From positions 1 through 41,110 of the forward strand of contig DWYZ01000173.1 of assembly GCA_019118425.1 (NCBI GenBank): 41,110 bases of DNA, given 5' to 3'. Positions 27,245 to 39,065 of this stretch are shown here, one piece after another. Every line of letters starts with the position of its first letter. Within the stretch, counting starts at the first letter, position 1. The translations under genes were made by a program, and so were the position numbers. This DNA is from Candidatus Blautia faecavium. Lineage in GTDB: Bacteria > Bacillota > Clostridia > Lachnospirales > Lachnospiraceae. The notes beneath the pieces were generated by a model. That model made no database searches. It was not told where the DNA came from and was given only the letters and a program-made list of their open reading frames with translations.

Positions 27245-27326
27245 ATTTGCAATCGGTCCGGTATTGTTGTTCCAATATCCTAAGATAAACCGAGCGAATA
27301 AGATCATAAAAGAGGAGGCAACGGTA

Positions 27327-28331
27327 ATGGGAAACAAAAAAATAGTACCAGGAACAGGCGGAGATCATTACATTCCTTATGAGGAACGAAGCGGGGAAGA
27401 GTCGATCGTATATTTTACCCGGGATCTTTCGGCAGAGGGACTTCGTAAAATTTATGAGCGCGTAAATAAAAACATGACAGGAATGATTGGCATCAAGCTT
27501 CATACCGGAGAAAAAGACGGCCCGAATATCATTCCCAGGCCCTGGGTGGAAAACCTGATCCAGAAGGATCTTCCAAATGCTGTGATCATCGAGACGAATT
27601 CATACTATGCAGGCGACCGGGACACTACGGAAAAGCACAGGGAAACTTTAAAAGTAAATGGATGGACCTTTGCGCCTGTGGATATCATGGACGAGGATGG
27701 AGCAGTTCCTTATCCGGTGAAAGACGGAAAATGGTTCACAGAAATGTACATGGGAAAAAATCTTTCTAATTATGACTCCCTTTTGGCTCTGACTCATTTT
27801 AAAGGACATAGCAAAGGCGGCTTCGGCGGCTCCAATAAAAATATCGGTATCGGCTGTGCTGACGGCAAGATTGGAAAAGCCATGATCCATACTACTCCCG
27901 GACAGGACGACCAGTGGGACATCAGCGATGAAGAATTTATGGAGAGAATGACAGAATCCACAAAGGCAGTAGTAGATCATTTTGGAAAAAATATCACATA
28001 TGTAAATGTAATGCGCAATATGTCTGTTTCCTGTGACTGCGAGGGCGTGCTGGCTTCCCCGGTAGTAACGCCTAACGTAGGCATCTGCGCGTCCTTAGAT
28101 ATCCTGGCGGCAGACCAGGCATGCATTGACATTGTATATGCCATGAAAGAAGAGGAGCATCATGACCTGGTAGAGCGGATCGAGTCCCGTCATGGCCTGC
28201 GCCAGCTTTCCTATATGAAAGAGCTGGGAATGGGAAATGACAGATATAAACTGATCGATATCGATAATGACGATCAGGAGATTCTTCCGGCAGATGCGGT
28301 GAAGGATCTGGTTCCGTTCGGACAAGAGTGA
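27327..28331 (+). CDS. DUF362 domain-containing protein
   Basis: A 334-residue protein of the DUF362 family. Typical features are IGIKLHTGEKDGPNIIPRPW near residue 50, VIIETNSYYAGDRDTTEKHR, and LALTHFKGHSKGGFGGSNKN near residue 155, with ADQACIDIVYAM near 270. Some DUF362 proteins carry a C-terminal ferredoxin domain; this one has no CxxCxxC cluster, so it is the short form. ATG 27327 is chosen over 27264 because GAGGAGG lies eight bases upstream. The Crp/Fnr gene begins three bases after the stop, so both share a transcript. The molecular function is not known. Confidence 0.8.
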   Translation: MGNKKIVPGTGGDHYIPYEERSGEESIVYFTRDLSAEGLRKIYERVNKNMTGMIGIKLHTGEKDGPNIIPRPWVENLIQKDLPNAVIIETNSYYAGDRDTTEKHRETLKVNGWTFAPVDIMDEDGAVPYPVKDGKWFTEMYMGKNLSNYDSLLALTHFKGHSKGGFGGSNKNIGIGCADGKIGKAMIHTTPGQDDQWDISDEEFMERMTESTKAVVDHFGKNITYVNVMRNMSVSCDCEGVLASPVVTPNVGICASLDILAADQACIDIVYAMKEEEHHDLVERIESRHGLRQLSYMKELGMGNDRYKLIDIDNDDQEILPADAVKDLVPFGQE

Positions 28332-28334
28332 TCT

Positions 28335-29042
28335 ATGGCAGATGCAGATCTGTTAAAAGGAATCGAATTTTTTAAGAATATTGACAGCCATACCCTGCAG
28401 GAACTTTCCTCCCATGGACGCGTACGCGAATATGACAAAGGAATGATCGTCTATCGCGCCAAAGAGCAGGTGAAATACATCTATTTTCAGCTGCAGGGAA
28501 AATCGATCCTGTATAATATGACTCACAGCGGCAGCAGAAAGATCATCTTTATCCTGGGGCGGGGAGAACTGTTAAACGACAACGTGTCAGGAGAGCAGAA
28601 AACCTCTCTTTTCTGCGAGACCATAGAAAAAAGCGCTATCCTGGAAATTCCTTTTTCTGTTTTTTTAAAACAGATGGAAAAGGATTTTAAGCTTACCAGC
28701 AAGGTGATCTCCAGCCAGGAAAGGAAGATCTGGCGTCTGGGACACCAACTAAAGAACACGATGGGCAGCATTTATCTGGAGAGGAAGCTGGCGGCGAAGC
28801 TGTGGAAGCTTTCCAGGGATTTCGGGATAAAAACAGAGCGGGGGACAGAGATAGACATTAGGATGTCTGTAACTTTTTTGGCGGATCTTTTAGGGGCGCC
28901 CAGGGAAACCACATCCCGTGTCTGCAAAACCCTTATGGAGCATGGACTGATCAATATGAATAGAAAACGGATCACCATTACAGACCCGGAAAGGATGTCT
29001 TACTTTTATAAAACAGGAATATATAAGGAATCTGAAGGTTAA
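28335..29042 (+). CDS. Crp/Fnr-family regulator with CRP-like recognition helix
   Basis: A 235-residue regulator. The cyclic-nucleotide-binding-type beta-barrel covers about residues 10-125 (GIEFFKNIDSHTLQEL, YIYFQLQGK, GRGELLNDN), a dimer helix follows, and the winged HTH covers residues 170-225 (MSVTFLADLLGAPRETTSRV, continuing CKTLMEHGLINM). The recognition helix has R190, E191 and R195 (RETTSR), as in E. coli CRP (RETVGR), where these residues read GTGA. No N-terminal FNR cysteine set is present. It overlaps no gene but follows DUF362 by 3 bp. It lies directly upstream of asrABC, and a GTGA-TCAC palindrome lies between them, so it is a good candidate regulator of sulfite reduction. Confidence 0.88.
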   Translation: MADADLLKGIEFFKNIDSHTLQELSSHGRVREYDKGMIVYRAKEQVKYIYFQLQGKSILYNMTHSGSRKIIFILGRGELLNDNVSGEQKTSLFCETIEKSAILEIPFSVFLKQMEKDFKLTSKVISSQERKIWRLGHQLKNTMGSIYLERKLAAKLWKLSRDFGIKTERGTEIDIRMSVTFLADLLGAPRETTSRVCKTLMEHGLINMNRKRITITDPERMSYFYKTGIYKESEG

Positions 29043-29067
29043 ATCAGCTAAAAATCCGTTATTTTAT

Positions 29068-29106
29068 CCGGATTTCGTGAGATACGTCACGGAATCCGGT
29101 TTTTTT
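29068..29106 (+). terminator. terminator after the Crp/Fnr gene, overlapping a possible operator
   Basis: CCGGATT-T-CGTGA pairs with TCACG-G-AATCCGG around a six-base loop, followed by seven T residues. It would end the DUF362-Crp transcript. The inner part is also a GTGA-N6-TCAC palindrome. Confidence 0.8.
29076..29091. promoter_or_regulatory. candidate Crp/Fnr-family operator before asrA
   Basis: CGTGA-GATACG-TCACG has the CRP-type arrangement GTGA-N6-TCAC. A -10 element TAAAAT lies at 29113-29118 without a fitting -35. It places +1 near 29125 and the palindrome centre at -41.5, the class II activator position. The site doubles as a terminator hairpin, so either role could be the main one. 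Confidence 0.5.
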
Positions 29107-29112
29107 ATTTGT

Positions 29113-29118
29113 TAAAAT
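29113..29118 (+). promoter_or_regulatory. -10 element of the asrABC operon
   Basis: TAAAAT, 38 bases before the asrA start codon. The -35 position (CGGAAT) is poor, which fits an activator-dependent promoter. Confidence 0.4.
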
Positions 29119-29155
29119 GTAGACAAAATAAAAAAGAAGAGGTGAAAAGTCGCTT

Positions 29156-30157
29156 ATGGGTTATCAATTATCAAAAGCACAGGCGGAGAACCTGTTTTCA
29201 GAGCTTTTAAAAAAATATGATATCCTGGCACCGGTGGTGAAAAAAGGAGAGGGTTGTTTTTCAGAGGTGGACGTCATCCGTTATGATAAGGTAAGCTCCC
29301 TGGACGAGATAGCCTGGGATCGCAAATCTGCCTACTCTTATAAAGAGACCTTGCTTCCGGTGAATGAAACTTTGTTTTATTTTACTGAGGATGAAACCAC
29401 AGTTCCGAAAGAATCGCCAAAAGAACAGATCGTTTTTCTGCGTTCCTGTGACCTATATGGAGTGAAACGTCTGGATGAGATTTATCTGAAAAATGGATTT
29501 GAAGATTTTTATTACAAAAGAAGACGGGAGCGCACGAAATTTATCCTTATGGGATGCCCGGATACCTGTGAATCCGGCTTTTGCGTCAGTATGGGGACAA
29601 ACAGGGCAGAAGATTATGACGGTTACATAAAAGGGGATAAAGGACAGGTCTATGTGGATTGTCCGTGGAAAGAGCTGGAGGAAAGGGTAAAAGTTCTCGG
29701 AGCTGTTTCTGCTGAAGTAAAGCCAGATTACCCAGCGGAAAATAAGGAGAAGGTCACTCTTCCGAAAAAACTTTCCAATGAGAGTTTTACTAAGGAGATA
29801 TGGAACGAGTACGGAGCAAGGTGCATCGGCTGCGGACGCTGTAACTTCGTCTGTCCTACCTGCACCTGTTTTACCATGCAGGACGTCAGCTATAAGGAAA
29901 ATGGAAAGGCCGGGGAGCGAAGAAGAGTGTGGGCCTCCTGTCAGGTAGACGGGTACACGGATATGGCCGGCGGCATTTCTTTTCGGAAAGCCCAGGGAGA
30001 ACGCTTCCGTTTTAAGGTGATGCACAAGATCTATGATTATGAAAAGCGCTTCGGCTATCCTATGTGCGTAGGCTGCGGACGCTGCGACGACGTTTGCCCG
30101 GAGTATATTTCCTATTCTAATTGTGTGAATCGTTTGGCAAAGGAGGAAGAGGCATGA
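29156..30157 (+). CDS. asrA: anaerobic sulfite reductase subunit A
   Basis: A 333-residue iron-sulfur subunit that passes electrons to the sulfite-reducing subunit. The N-terminal 200 residues match the AsrA/hydrogenase-B-like domain (VFLRSCDLYGVKRLDEIYL, FILMGCPDTCESGFCV). Two 4Fe-4S ferredoxin motifs follow: CIGCGRCNFVCPTCTC near residue 223 and CVGCGRCDDVCP near residue 305. GAGGTG lies before the ATG. The stop overlaps the asrB start by four bases (ATGA), so the genes are coupled. With asrB and asrC it reduces sulfite to sulfide in the cytoplasm. Confidence 0.95.
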   Translation: MGYQLSKAQAENLFSELLKKYDILAPVVKKGEGCFSEVDVIRYDKVSSLDEIAWDRKSAYSYKETLLPVNETLFYFTEDETTVPKESPKEQIVFLRSCDLYGVKRLDEIYLKNGFEDFYYKRRRERTKFILMGCPDTCESGFCVSMGTNRAEDYDGYIKGDKGQVYVDCPWKELEERVKVLGAVSAEVKPDYPAENKEKVTLPKKLSNESFTKEIWNEYGARCIGCGRCNFVCPTCTCFTMQDVSYKENGKAGERRRVWASCQVDGYTDMAGGISFRKAQGERFRFKVMHKIYDYEKRFGYPMCVGCGRCDDVCPEYISYSNCVNRLAKEEEA

Positions 30158-30945
30158 AAAACGAATATATTCCTCAGCTATCTCAGATCAAAGAAGTGAT
30201 CAAGCATACAGATCTGGAGTACACATTCCGCATGGTCTATGAAGGAGAAGCAAAGCCGGGACAGTTTTTCGAAATCTCTCTTCCGAAATATGGAGAAGCC
30301 CCTATTTCCATAAGCGGCATCGGAGAAGGAACCTTAGATTTCACTATCCGGAGAGTGGGAAAGGTTACCAATGAAATATTCGAGAATTATGCAGGGGACA
30401 GCCTCTTTATGAGAGGACCCTATGGGAATGGCTTTGATATAGAAAATTACAGGGGAAAAGAAATTGTGGTGATCGCCGGCGGGACGGGGATATCTCCGGT
30501 AAAAGGCGTGATAGATTATTTTGCCCGGCATATGCAGGAGTGTGCAGGCGTTGTTTTGATCGCGGGATTTAAGAGCCCGAAAGATGTTTTATTTAAAGAG
30601 GATTTTGCTTTTTGGAAGGATAAGCTTGAGGTCATATTGACAGTGGACAATGCCCCGGAAGGGTACGAAGGGAATATGGGAATGGTAACGAAATATATTC
30701 CCCAGATAAAGCTTAAAAATCCGAAAAACGCCGTCTTTATCTGCGTAGGCCCTCCTGTTATGATGAAATTCAGCGTTATGGAAATCCTGAAACTGGGCAT
30801 AGAAGAAGAGCAGATCTGGATATCCAATGAAAGAAAAATGTGCTGCGGACTGGGAAAATGCGGCCATTGCAGGATGGGAAGCACCTATATCTGCCTGGAC
30901 GGCCCGGTATTTAACTATAAGGAAGGAAAGAATCTGATCGATTAG
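30154..30945 (+). CDS. asrB: anaerobic sulfite reductase subunit B
   Basis: A 263-residue flavoprotein of the ferredoxin-NADP reductase fold that brings electrons from NAD(P)H. The FAD-binding barrel occupies residues 10-95 (GQFFEISLPKYGEAPISISG, FTIRRVGKVTNEIF). The nucleotide-binding domain has VVIAGGTGISPVKGVIDY near residue 112. A C-terminal cysteine cluster CCGLGKCGHCRMG ending in YICLDGPVF holds a 2Fe-2S centre as in PyrK/AsrB. ATG 30154 has AGGAGG upstream; the in-frame opening at 30121 lies inside asrA. The asrC gene follows 10 bp later. Confidence 0.95.
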   Translation: MKNEYIPQLSQIKEVIKHTDLEYTFRMVYEGEAKPGQFFEISLPKYGEAPISISGIGEGTLDFTIRRVGKVTNEIFENYAGDSLFMRGPYGNGFDIENYRGKEIVVIAGGTGISPVKGVIDYFARHMQECAGVVLIAGFKSPKDVLFKEDFAFWKDKLEVILTVDNAPEGYEGNMGMVTKYIPQIKLKNPKNAVFICVGPPVMMKFSVMEILKLGIEEEQIWISNERKMCCGLGKCGHCRMGSTYICLDGPVFNYKEGKNLID

Positions 30946-30955
30946 GGAGGCTGCC

Positions 30956-31939
30956 ATGGGAAAAGATTTTAATACAAAAAAATTGAAAAAAAATGCTTTC
31001 CGGGTGTCCAAGGAGCGGGGAATGGGAGCTTCCCGCATCCGTGTTCCTGGAGGCTATCTGAATGCGGAAATACTGGGCATGGTCCAGGAGATTTCCCAGA
31101 CATACGGAAACGGATATGTGCATCTGACTACCCGCCAGGGATTTGAAATCGAGGGTATCCGGCTGGAGGATATGGAGGAGATCAATAAAAAGCTCCAGCC
31201 CATTATTGAAATGCTGGAAATCAACCAGGAAGATCCTTATACCGGCTATCCGGCTTCAGGGACGAGAAACATAAGCGCCTGTATAGGAAACAATGTCTGT
31301 CCCTTTGCTAATTATAATACAGCGGAACTGGCCAGGCGCATCGAAAAAGAGATTTTTCCCAATGATCTCCACTTTAAGGTGGCCTGCACAGGATGTTCCA
31401 ACGACTGTGCGAAGGCAAGGATGCATGATTTCGGGATTATAGGCATGACCATGCCACAATATGACCCTGCACGCTGCGTAAGCTGCCAGGCATGTATAAA
31501 GGGATGCAAATCCTTATCCGTAGACGCTCTCCGCATGGAAAATTATAAGATCGTCCGGGATACGGAAAAGTGTATCGGCTGCGGGGTATGCATCACAAAA
31601 TGTCCCACACGGGCCCTGACCAGAAGCAGGAAAAAATATTACAAGCTTGCCATAATGGGGCGCACAGGAAAGAAAAATCCCCGTCTGGGAAAGGATTTTC
31701 TCGTATGGGCAGACGAGGAGAATATCATTAAGATCATCCTGAATACCTATAAATTTGTGAAGGAATATATCTCACCTGACGCGCCTGGAGGAAAGGAACA
31801 TATAGGATATATCATCGACCGGGTGGGCTTTGAGGAATATAAAAAGTGGGCTCTGGACGGTGTGGAGCTTATGCCGGAAACCGTGGTAAACGAGACGATA
31901 TACTGGGATGGGCTGCACTTTGACAATAAGGGGAAATAA
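30956..31939 (+). CDS. asrC: anaerobic sulfite reductase subunit C (siroheme)
   Basis: A 327-residue catalytic subunit. The siroheme-4Fe-4S ligands follow the sulfite reductase pattern C-x5-C and C-x3-C: C109 and C115 (ACIGNNVCPFA), C147 and C151 (TGCSNDCAKAR). Two ferredoxin-type clusters come next, CVSCQACIKGC and CIGCGVCITKC, between residues 178 and 222. The N-terminus has the ferredoxin-like sulfite reductase half-domain (YVHLTTRQGFEIEGI). GGGAGG precedes the ATG. The organism should therefore release sulfide from sulfite. This is the last gene of the operon. Confidence 0.95.
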   Translation: MGKDFNTKKLKKNAFRVSKERGMGASRIRVPGGYLNAEILGMVQEISQTYGNGYVHLTTRQGFEIEGIRLEDMEEINKKLQPIIEMLEINQEDPYTGYPASGTRNISACIGNNVCPFANYNTAELARRIEKEIFPNDLHFKVACTGCSNDCAKARMHDFGIIGMTMPQYDPARCVSCQACIKGCKSLSVDALRMENYKIVRDTEKCIGCGVCITKCPTRALTRSRKKYYKLAIMGRTGKKNPRLGKDFLVWADEENIIKIILNTYKFVKEYISPDAPGGKEHIGYIIDRVGFEEYKKWALDGVELMPETVVNETIYWDGLHFDNKGK

Positions 31940-32175: not shown

Positions 32176-33504
32176 ATGTACACAACAGGAAAAAAATTAC
32201 AGGAAGATCGTATTGCGCTTAGGCTTTTGCAGTTTAGTATTCCATTGATATTAAGCGGAATCCTCCAGCAGCTTTATAACTGGGTGGACGCCTTTGTGGT
32301 AGGGAATGTAGACGGAGAATTGGCTCTGGCAGCTGTGGGTTCCACGACTAGTGTCATAAACTTTTATATTCTTGCCATTACCGGGTTTACTACAGGACTG
32401 GCTATTTTATTCGCGCAGAAATTCGGAAGCGGGAGAATGGAAGAAATTCCCAGGATCCTTTCTACTTTTTCCGGGATCTTAGGGGGGATTTTTTTCATGC
32501 TGGCCTTGCTGGGATTTTATCTTACGCCGGAATTATTAAAGCTGATGAATACCACTGCGGATACGTTTGAACTGGCAAAGGATTATTTGCAGATCATTTT
32601 TGCCGGGGTTCCCTTTCTGGCAGTGTATAATGTGTATTCCGCCGCTCTTCGGGGGTTAGGAGACAGCCGGGCGCCGTTTCTGGCCATTTTGGTCTCCTCG
32701 GCGGTAAATATTGTGCTGGATATTTTGTTTGTGGCGGTTTTAGACTGGAATGTGACGGGAGCGGCTGCCGCTACTGTGATTTCTCAGATTGCCATGACGG
32801 TTTTTCTGATCGTATATGGAATAAAAAAATATCCTCTTCTCCGGTTTCGTCCAGGAAAAGATATGGTGGATGGGACAGCGTTTATCCAGGGAGTCCGGCT
32901 TGGTATTCCACCTATGGTACAGTCCTGTATCACTGCTTTTGGAAATCTGATCCTTCAGAATTTTATGAATGGGTTCGGCAGCCGGACAGTGGCGGCCATT
33001 ACTACTGCGTACAGGGTAGACACGATCGTCATCCTTCCGGTTGTGAATCTGGGATCGGGTATTTCCACTCTTGTGGCCCAAAGCTATGGAGCAGGGGAAA
33101 TGAAAAGAGGGAAAAGGATATTTGCTGTAGGAATGGGCATGATGGTTATAGTTTCTCTTTGTCTGACCTGCCTTGTGATACCGGCAGGAGGGCACCTGAT
33201 CGCCCTTTTTGGTGCCAGTGAAGATGTGGTAAGGATCGGGCAGGAGTTTTTCCGGGGGCTGGCAGTATTCTATTTTGTCTATGGGATCGCGAGCGCGTTT
33301 CGGGGATATCTGGAAGGCGTGGGGGATGTACTGTATTCCAGCGTTATCGGGATCGTGGCGTTATTGTCCCGTATTCTTATGTCCTATGCCTTTGTCGATC
33401 TGTGGGACAATCAGATCATTGCCTATGCAGAGGCTTTTTCCTGGGGAGTTATGCTGATGCTGTATTTGATCCGGTTTTTATGGAAGCAGAAGAAAATGGC
33501 GTAA
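32176..33504 (+). CDS. MATE-family efflux transporter
   Basis: A 442-residue multidrug and toxin extrusion-type antiporter with about 12 helices in two halves. The start of each half is recognisable: LRLLQFSIPLILSGILQQLY with NWVDAFVVGNVDG, and FIQGVRLGIPPMVQSCITAF in the middle. ALRGLGDSRAPF and FRGYLEGVGDVLYSSVIGI are typical loop motifs. Such pumps use a Na+ or H+ gradient to export cationic compounds. GGGGG lies before the ATG. It follows a long leader with a terminator-like hairpin, and a GNAT gene lies close downstream. Confidence 0.92.
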   Translation: MYTTGKKLQEDRIALRLLQFSIPLILSGILQQLYNWVDAFVVGNVDGELALAAVGSTTSVINFYILAITGFTTGLAILFAQKFGSGRMEEIPRILSTFSGILGGIFFMLALLGFYLTPELLKLMNTTADTFELAKDYLQIIFAGVPFLAVYNVYSAALRGLGDSRAPFLAILVSSAVNIVLDILFVAVLDWNVTGAAAATVISQIAMTVFLIVYGIKKYPLLRFRPGKDMVDGTAFIQGVRLGIPPMVQSCITAFGNLILQNFMNGFGSRTVAAITTAYRVDTIVILPVVNLGSGISTLVAQSYGAGEMKRGKRIFAVGMGMMVIVSLCLTCLVIPAGGHLIALFGASEDVVRIGQEFFRGLAVFYFVYGIASAFRGYLEGVGDVLYSSVIGIVALLSRILMSYAFVDLWDNQIIAYAEAFSWGVMLMLYLIRFLWKQKKMA

Positions 33505-38912: not shown

Positions 38913-38985
38913 TGGAGCATATGGGATTCGAACCCACGGCCTCCACAATGCGAATGTGGCGCGCTCCCAGCTGCGCTAATGCCCC
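38913..38985 (-). tRNA. tRNA-Ala (anticodon CGC)
   Basis: A 73-nt cloverleaf. The acceptor stem GGGGCAT pairs with ATGCTCC, including a G3-U70 pair, the identity element for alanyl-tRNA synthetase. D stem GCGC/GCGC; anticodon stem CCACA/TGTGG with loop TTCGCAT, anticodon CGC, reading GCG. T arm GTGGG-TTCGAAT-CCCAT. Discriminator A; no CCA is encoded. It follows the valine tRNA by six bases on the same strand. Confidence 0.93.
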
Positions 38986-38991
38986 CAAAAA

Positions 38992-39065
38992 TGGAAGCAA
39001 GGAGGCTCGAACTCCTGACCTTTCGCGTGTGAGGCGAACGCTCATCCCGGCTGAGCTATGCTTCC
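38992..39065 (-). tRNA. tRNA-Val (anticodon CAC)
   Basis: A 74-nt cloverleaf. Acceptor GGAAGCA/TGCTTCC, D stem GCTC/GAGC, anticodon stem TTCGC/GCGAA with loop CTCACAC, anticodon CAC, reading GTG. T arm AGGAG-TTCGAGC-CTCCT. Discriminator A; CCA is not encoded. First gene of the two-tRNA transcript. Confidence 0.93.

Follow-up and report, generated by a model that had tools for sequence, protein, structure and literature searches.

A gene for a Crp/Fnr-family regulator in Candidatus Blautia faecavium is followed by the genes of an anaerobic sulfite reductase, and the gap between them holds a palindrome resembling both an intrinsic terminator and the operator of a Crp-type activator. The locus raises the question whether one palindrome can have both roles, as the first-pass annotation had proposed, i.e. 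whether the site used to switch on asrABC is also the one that ends the regulator's own transcript. The DNA analyzed (hereafter the window) is a stretch of 41,110 nt of contig DWYZ01000173.1, from a genome of 3.5 Mb in 318 contigs. The following features are referred to throughout:

28335..29042, + strand: Crp/Fnr-family regulator gene (crp), 235 aa, recognition helix R190-E191-T-T-S194-R195 (ORF, Pfam, alignment, AlphaFold2 model)
29068..29109, + strand: predicted intrinsic terminator of crp, 13-pair stem 29068-29099, loop of 6, T-rich tail 29100-29109 (sequence, folding, same form in most relatives' gaps)
29077..29090, + strand: predicted operator GTGA-GATACG-TCAC, centre 29083.5, within the terminator stem (pattern counts, comparison of relatives)
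29090..29095, + strand: -35 position CGGAAT, a poor match, abutting the right half of the operator (sequence)
29113..29118, + strand: TAAAAT, predicted -10 of the asr promoter, at offsets 30-35 counted from the centre of the operator (sequence, comparison)
29125, + strand: predicted asrABC transcription start, an A preceded by C, which places the operator at -41.5 (A at offset 42, CA at 41-42 in relatives)
29156..30157, + strand: asrA, anaerobic sulfite reductase subunit A (TIGR02910, 479.5 bits, cut-off 323.15)
30154..30945, + strand: asrB, anaerobic sulfite reductase subunit B (TIGR02911, 430.8 bits, cut-off 288.6)
30956..31939, + strand: asrC, sulfite reductase subunit C (TIGR02912, 518.6 bits, cut-off 324.1)

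The regulator, its palindrome and its neighbors

All three subunits of AsrABC score above the NCBIfam equivalog cut-offs, and the genes follow crp in the order asrA, asrB, asrC after a gap of 113 nt. A DUF362 gene (27264-28331) stops 3 nt 5' of crp and may share a transcript with it; it has no tblastn match (E <= 1e-10) in the other 124 loci compared below, many of which extend at most 1500 nt upstream of the match. A MATE-family transporter gene lies 3' of asrC (32176-33504) and a pair of adjacent tRNA genes occupies the minus strand (38913-39065); the Rfam scan of the window at the gathering threshold revealed two tRNAs and nothing else.

The regulator is a member of the Crp/Fnr superfamily, with above-threshold matches to PF00027 (cNMP_binding, 35.6 bits, cut-off 27.5) and PF13545 (HTH_Crp_2, 56.1 bits, cut-off 27), and it falls below the cut-offs of both the CRP equivalog NF008732 (35.2 bits vs 266) and the FNR model NF008365 (47.3 bits vs 228). 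FNR has four cysteine ligands for its 4Fe-4S cluster; the sequence studied here possesses just two cysteines, C94 and C197. The structure search (Foldseek) identified GlxR, CRP from M. tuberculosis and NtcA as the best matches (query TM 0.75-0.84 for the top ten), and in the AlphaFold2 model (pLDDT 92) residues 190-202 form a helix. The residues of the CRP-like recognition helix pointed out in the first-pass annotation, R190-E-T-T-S-R195, are present and conserved: R190, E191 and S194 are invariant in alignments of 32 and of 46 sequences, and in the former, which contains the regulator studied here, R195 is shared by at least 90%. A 2005 comparative study of HcpR (PMC1274295) reports a correlation between R180/E181 of the protein and G3/A6 of its binding site, and the GTGA half-site found here agrees with that correlation. 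The source genome contains two further places weakly similar to the regulator (E 8.6e-8 and 6.2e-4).

The palindrome CGTGA-GATACG-TCACG is found in the crp-asrA gap, as had been claimed, at 29076-29091, where it forms the inner part of the 13-pair terminator stem, which is perfect but for one G-T pair. The gap reads CCGGATTTCGTGA-GATACG-TCACGGAATCCGG-TTTTTTTATT, with TTTTTTTATT directly 3' of the stem. The calculated minimum free energy (MFE) of the hairpin RNA is -21.7 kcal/mol, vs -7.89 (sd 2.15) in 200 shuffles, and with a stable stem-loop and a U tract after crp the hairpin qualifies as a predicted intrinsic terminator. The bare GTGA-N6-TCAC pattern is not enriched in the 3.5-Mb source genome (30 places vs 22 for the reversed pattern); since it is not rare, the single window is insufficient, and it is the comparison of relatives that decides. 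The long form of the palindrome occurs in one copy each in 6 of the 64 genus genomes, always at crp-asr, hence it does not represent a repeat family, and this candidate was ruled out.

Conservation of the site, its promoter geometry and its linkage to the regulator

Homologs of the regulator were collected from 64 genomes of the genus, from 397 of the family and from contigs of GTDB, of which the best 80 of 288 stretches were taken. The comparison used 125 loci (L001, L004-L019, L048-L155), leaving out the weak matches from the source genome (L002, L003) and further weak matches or fragments (L020-L032); five family genomes to which no locus was assigned at first (G089, G112, G364, G374, G423) were examined later. 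Removal of short proteins and of those identical over residues 61-190 left 95 distinct regulators, 81 of them with asrA downstream on the same strand. The loci were selected by the protein and not by the site, they are biased to closer relatives, and many come from metagenome-assembled genomes.

GTGA-N6-TCAC is present in the crp-asrA gap or at most 250 nt upstream of crp in 75 of the 81 distinct loci. The same scan with the other 255 half-sites gave at best 13 (TTTT) and 12 (GATA) loci of 81, with a mean of 0.76, and GTGA...TCAC with spacers of 2-5 and 7-12 was found in 0 or 1 locus each. The motif is retained at 35-65% Crp identity. Three further loci (L085, L104, L127) have a one-mismatch site in the gap, with a -10 hexamer at the right offset (5, 4 and 5 of 6 matches, respectively), while L057, L062 and L140, which possess both crp and asrA, show no site even with one mismatch allowed. 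The position of the site varies with the length of the crp-asrA gap: 60 loci have it in the gap alone (gap of 64-1141 nt, median 121), 13 upstream of crp alone (11-90 nt, median 20) and 2 at both positions (80 nt). When little or no space separates crp from asrA, the site is thus found 5' of crp, which indicates that it tracks the promoter rather than the terminator. The left GTGA shares bases with the TGA that ends crp in 13 loci (L017, L018, L069, L070, L071, L073, L075, L077, L080, L114, L118, L122 and L123), so that the last bases of the regulator gene form part of the predicted operator. Three loci with gaps of 840-880 nt (L071-L073) have an ORF between the site and asrA, which in L071 matches NirC and FNT channel models below the cut-offs.

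The arrangement of the promoter elements was analyzed for 85 sites, 70 from the gap and 15 from upstream of crp. At offset 30, 62 sites have a hexamer with at least 5 of 6 matches to TATAAT, and 80 sites have one with 4 or more. Offset 35 comes second, with 18 and 42 sites at these two levels. Offset 30 is the sole best -10 between offsets 12 and 69 in 34 sites and joint best in 67. The match to TTGACA at offsets 7-12 amounts to at most 2 of 6 in 71 sites. An A occupies offset 42 in 76% of the 70 gap sites, and CA occupies offsets 41-42 in 39 of the 85. E. coli CRP carries out class II activation from a site centred at -41.5, and the crp-asr sites can be classified, from their sequences, as promoters of the class II Crp type. 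The first-pass annotation had predicted exactly this geometry in the window, and the coordinates bear it out: the distance from the centre at 29083.5 to A29125, with +1 seven bases past TAAAAT, is 41.5 bp, and the -35 hexamer, described as poor, is CGGAAT, with 2 of 6 matches to TTGACA. Ten positions of the 17-bp spacer (29096-29112) belong to the T-rich tail of the terminator.

A genome search for sites at -41 had also been suggested. It was run as the class II pattern ending in TANNNT and found 3 places in the source genome vs 1 for the control, and the candidate of a large regulon was set aside. The small number of places makes a dedicated local regulator likelier.

The association of the site with this particular regulator was assessed in the family, where AsrA scores over the cut-off in 78 of the 397 genomes, 34 with this Crp (E <= 1e-20) and 44 without. 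In 30 of the 34 an exact site precedes asrA, crp or the channel gene that lies between them. No site was found in two genomes with AsrA and this Crp (G211, G242), a third (G364) has it at a distance of 1244 nt from asrA, on the 5' side and followed by a correctly placed TATAAT, and a fourth, G423, has it after crp and ahead of another gene, with none at most 1500 nt from asrA. Among the 44 genomes without this Crp, a site occurs at most 400 nt from asrA in 1 (G266) and at most 1500 nt in 3, with three of the stretches being shorter than 1500 nt; in G266 the site precedes asrA, the -10 is weak (TACTGT) and there is a distant Crp alone (E 8.9e-7). The difference (30/4 vs 1/43) gives p = 3.8e-16 in Fisher's exact test, a value which ignores relatedness and for which the stretch before crp was counted too in the genomes with Crp. 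Other Crp-like proteins were detected by profile match in 39 of the 44 genomes without this Crp (best E 2.9e-18), so the site goes with this Crp and not with Crp/Fnr proteins in general. In two genomes (G225, locus L164, and G265, locus L169) crp lies on another contig, with none at most 1500 nt upstream of asrA, and asrA is still preceded by the site and by a correctly spaced TATAAT or TAATAT. In G374 (L253) crp and asrA are divergent, the site is located between them, and TAATAT is oriented toward asrA.

Fourteen distinct regulators have no asrA downstream. Eight of them (L095, L099, L100, L102, L130, L142, L146 and L147) are followed by a site; all eight sites pass the folding test described below when pairing of the core is not required, and have TAAAAT or TATAAT at offset 30. 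The downstream ORF resembles molybdopterin oxidoreductases in 7 of the 7 loci read; the eighth, L099, is placed by the tree next to L095 as almost a duplicate. NCBIfam scans of three of these ORFs (L100, L142, L147) gave matches to models of formate dehydrogenase and of nitrate reductase that score under the cut-off. In L254 crp and its site/terminator likewise precede a molybdopterin oxidoreductase-like ORF, and the distant relative in G423 has the same layout, with the downstream ORF judged by resemblance. The appearance of a molybdopterin oxidoreductase in place of asrA suggests that control is wider than sulfur metabolism alone and that the regulator may govern anaerobic oxidoreductases. 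The other six regulators have no site beside crp. L083 has just 51 nt of contig left 3' of the gene, and two more, L060 and L074, come from the genomes (G265 and G225, respectively) whose asrA has the site on another contig; the remaining three, L016, L053 and L126, have no such explanation and count against the linkage.

Two observations concern sites away from crp. In G008 (L242) a stretch of 42 nt, from the site to the -10, is identical to that before crp in G044 and precedes a GNAT-like ORF; the best crp match in G008 has an E-value of just 3.2e-4, and since no close crp match is found there, the stretch looks like a remnant, a scar of crp-asr loss. In G014 and G037 class II-like GTGA-N6-TCAC sites (L243, L248, L251, L252) precede similar ORFs with signal-like starts, which by sequence resemble nucleoside hydrolases; these sites probably serve a different Crp/Fnr protein.

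The terminator form among relatives and its evolution

A strict definition of the terminator, which asks for at least 8 stem pairs around a 6-base loop and for 5 or more T among 8 bases, fits 51 of the 70 gap sites vs 0 of the 15 sites upstream of crp. The folding test, which asks for an MFE <= -8, a paired core and the same T content, gave 60 of 70 vs 3 of 15, hence the terminator form is largely confined to the gap. The mean MFE is -16.6 for the gap sites, -12.2 when their left flanks are redealt among the loci, and -6.7 for the upstream sites. The right flank (rGAA) is similar in gap and upstream sites, and the left flank is complementary to it in the gap sites alone; position 10 of the stem is paired in 0 of the 15 upstream sites. 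At position 8 the gap sites have C-G in 38 cases, T-A in 24, T-G in 4 and C-A in 4, i.e. 66 of 70 are paired vs 53.2 expected if the two bases were independent. Pairing also exceeds the expectation at positions 11 (61 of 70 vs 48.2) and 13 (56 vs 37.8), and barely so at positions 9 (66 vs 65.1) and 12 (63 vs 59.6). In independent pairs taken from the tree, the right base follows the left on average in 2.4 of 4 pairs at position 8, 2.8 of 3 at position 11, 3.7 of 10 at position 13 and 1.0 of 10 at position 9, where the right base barely varies (1.0 of 10 pairs informative); the opposite change was seen 0.0 times on average, in too few pairs for significance.

The maximum-likelihood tree of the 95 regulators, rooted at the midpoint, groups 12 of the 13 upstream-only loci in one clade of 14 (100/100), alongside two loci devoid of a site. 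Sites in the gap are found on either side of the midpoint root. A deep clade of nine has the site at the crp stop codon in 7 loci, and 5 of its 8 loci with a site fail the core-free folding test. The distribution calls for a minimum of 2 changes of site position and of 5 changes of terminator presence among the gap sites. Roughly, since the bootstrap has not settled, the terminator form seems to be common and to have been gained or lost more than once.

Proposed mechanism, alternatives and relation to known systems

We consider it highly probable that the palindrome in the crp terminator is the class II operator through which this Crp acts on asrABC, termination and insulation included. According to this proposal, in the RNA made from crp the segment 29068-29109 would fold into the 13-pair hairpin with its U tract and end the crp message. 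In the DNA, the inner 14 bp, GTGA-N6-TCAC, would be bound by the dimer of the Crp/Fnr protein encoded just upstream. Bound at -41.5, beside the poor -35, the dimer would activate asrABC as CRP does at class II promoters, and the T-rich tail of the terminator would sit in the spacer between -35 and -10. Insulation is the likely benefit: crp could be transcribed with no read-through into asrABC, which would start only once the regulator is switched on, possibly by a sulfite- or other oxyanion-related signal. The only outside hint on the signal is a statement in PMC2940859 that sulfite may induce sulfite reductases, citing work on another Clostridium. The proposal of an activating site shared with the terminator originated as an interpretation in the first-pass annotation; this idea is now supported by the sequence comparison, namely by the conservation of the site, the promoter geometry, the linkage to Crp and the retention of the terminator. 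We regard as tentative, and rather doubtful, the further idea that the fusion is a selected device and more than a saving of space, in which activator binding and transcription through the shared bases would compete, the bound activator blocking residual crp read-through while starting asrABC and strong crp transcription clearing the operator, with several gains or losses and at least two kinds of target operon. The palindrome would then tie the output of the regulator gene to that of its target.

Three other explanations deserve consideration. The palindrome could be only the terminator of crp, with GTGA-N6-TCAC an accidental core of the stem or part of a terminator-linked repeat family; the 13-pair stem, perfect apart from its one G-T pair, and the lack of enrichment of the bare 14-mer (30 vs 22) would fit such a view. 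However, the sites upstream of crp share the motif and the -10 geometry and mostly have no terminator, the motif persists at 35-65% Crp identity and also at asrA genes with crp on another contig, and the long palindrome is confined to this locus in the 64 genus genomes. An accidental terminator sequence is ruled out by the half-site scan together with the upstream sites, and we find this explanation as a whole scarcely credible. Alternatively, the operator could be real and be used in another way, the neighboring regulator repressing asrABC or another Crp/Fnr protein binding there, for which the two weak Crp-like places in the source genome (E 8.6e-8 and 6.2e-4) provide candidates. This we judge unlikely, as the exact centre at -41.5 and the poor -35 constitute the class II activation geometry of E. 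coli CRP, and the site is found in 30 of 34 genomes with this Crp vs 1 of 44 without it, though 39 of the latter match the Crp profile.

Finally, asrABC could be expressed mainly by induced read-through from crp at a regulated terminator, the internal promoter being minor. The genes are indeed co-directional and separated by just 113 nt, and one clade, with gaps of 11-90 nt and the site upstream of crp, is operon-like. But relatives conserve the -10 and the +1 that follow the hairpin, and a transcript begun at that +1 would not contain the hairpin, which makes such a mechanism very unlikely. The reading we prefer remains that of an operator for activation of asrABC placed within the terminator of crp.

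The locus appears to provide a well-defined example, conserved and open to experiment, of a single palindrome that serves as an operator in DNA and as a terminator in RNA. The two-in-one element occurs in mostly gut bacteria, mainly Lachnospiraceae, and appears to be a compact form of control. Our analysis predicts that anaerobic sulfite reduction, a source of hydrogen sulfide, has a regulator of its own, and predicts where that regulator binds, and the relatives that possess the operator and no terminator are natural controls.

Searches of an open-access library yielded neither a Crp-type regulator of asrABC nor a proven fusion of operator and terminator, which is weak evidence of absence. 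According to PMC1274295, the HcpR proteins are similar in being FNR-like, in regulating redox enzymes in anaerobes and in having one branch with a CRP-like motif. They differ in that the motif of the HcpR2 branch, to which Clostridium belongs, is GTAACnnnnGTTAC and stands upstream of hcp, while the targets here are asrABC or a molybdopterin oxidoreductase; the main text of that paper does not contain the terms "asrabc", "asr" or "sulfite reductase". Palindromes combining a terminator with a transcription-factor site, with start sites on both sides, were proposed in 2010 in "Premature terminator analysis" (PMC2965389) as an untested hypothesis worth testing. That hypothesis concerns 5' leaders and self-regulation, whereas the palindrome described here is located at the 3' end of the regulator gene, is predicted to activate the next operon and is found in many lineages.

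A further close parallel is provided by the class II promoters of CRP and FNR, with which the crp-asr sites share the RE..SR helix of the regulator, the GTGA-N6-TCAC site, its centre at -41.5, the poor -35 and a -10 placed as expected. They differ from them in that the regulator falls below the CRP equivalog cut-off (35.2 vs 266 bits) and that the predicted operator forms part of the intrinsic terminator predicted for the very gene that encodes the activator. The parts, a class II Crp-type promoter and an intrinsic terminator, are of known kinds; their conserved fusion is a new variation on these.
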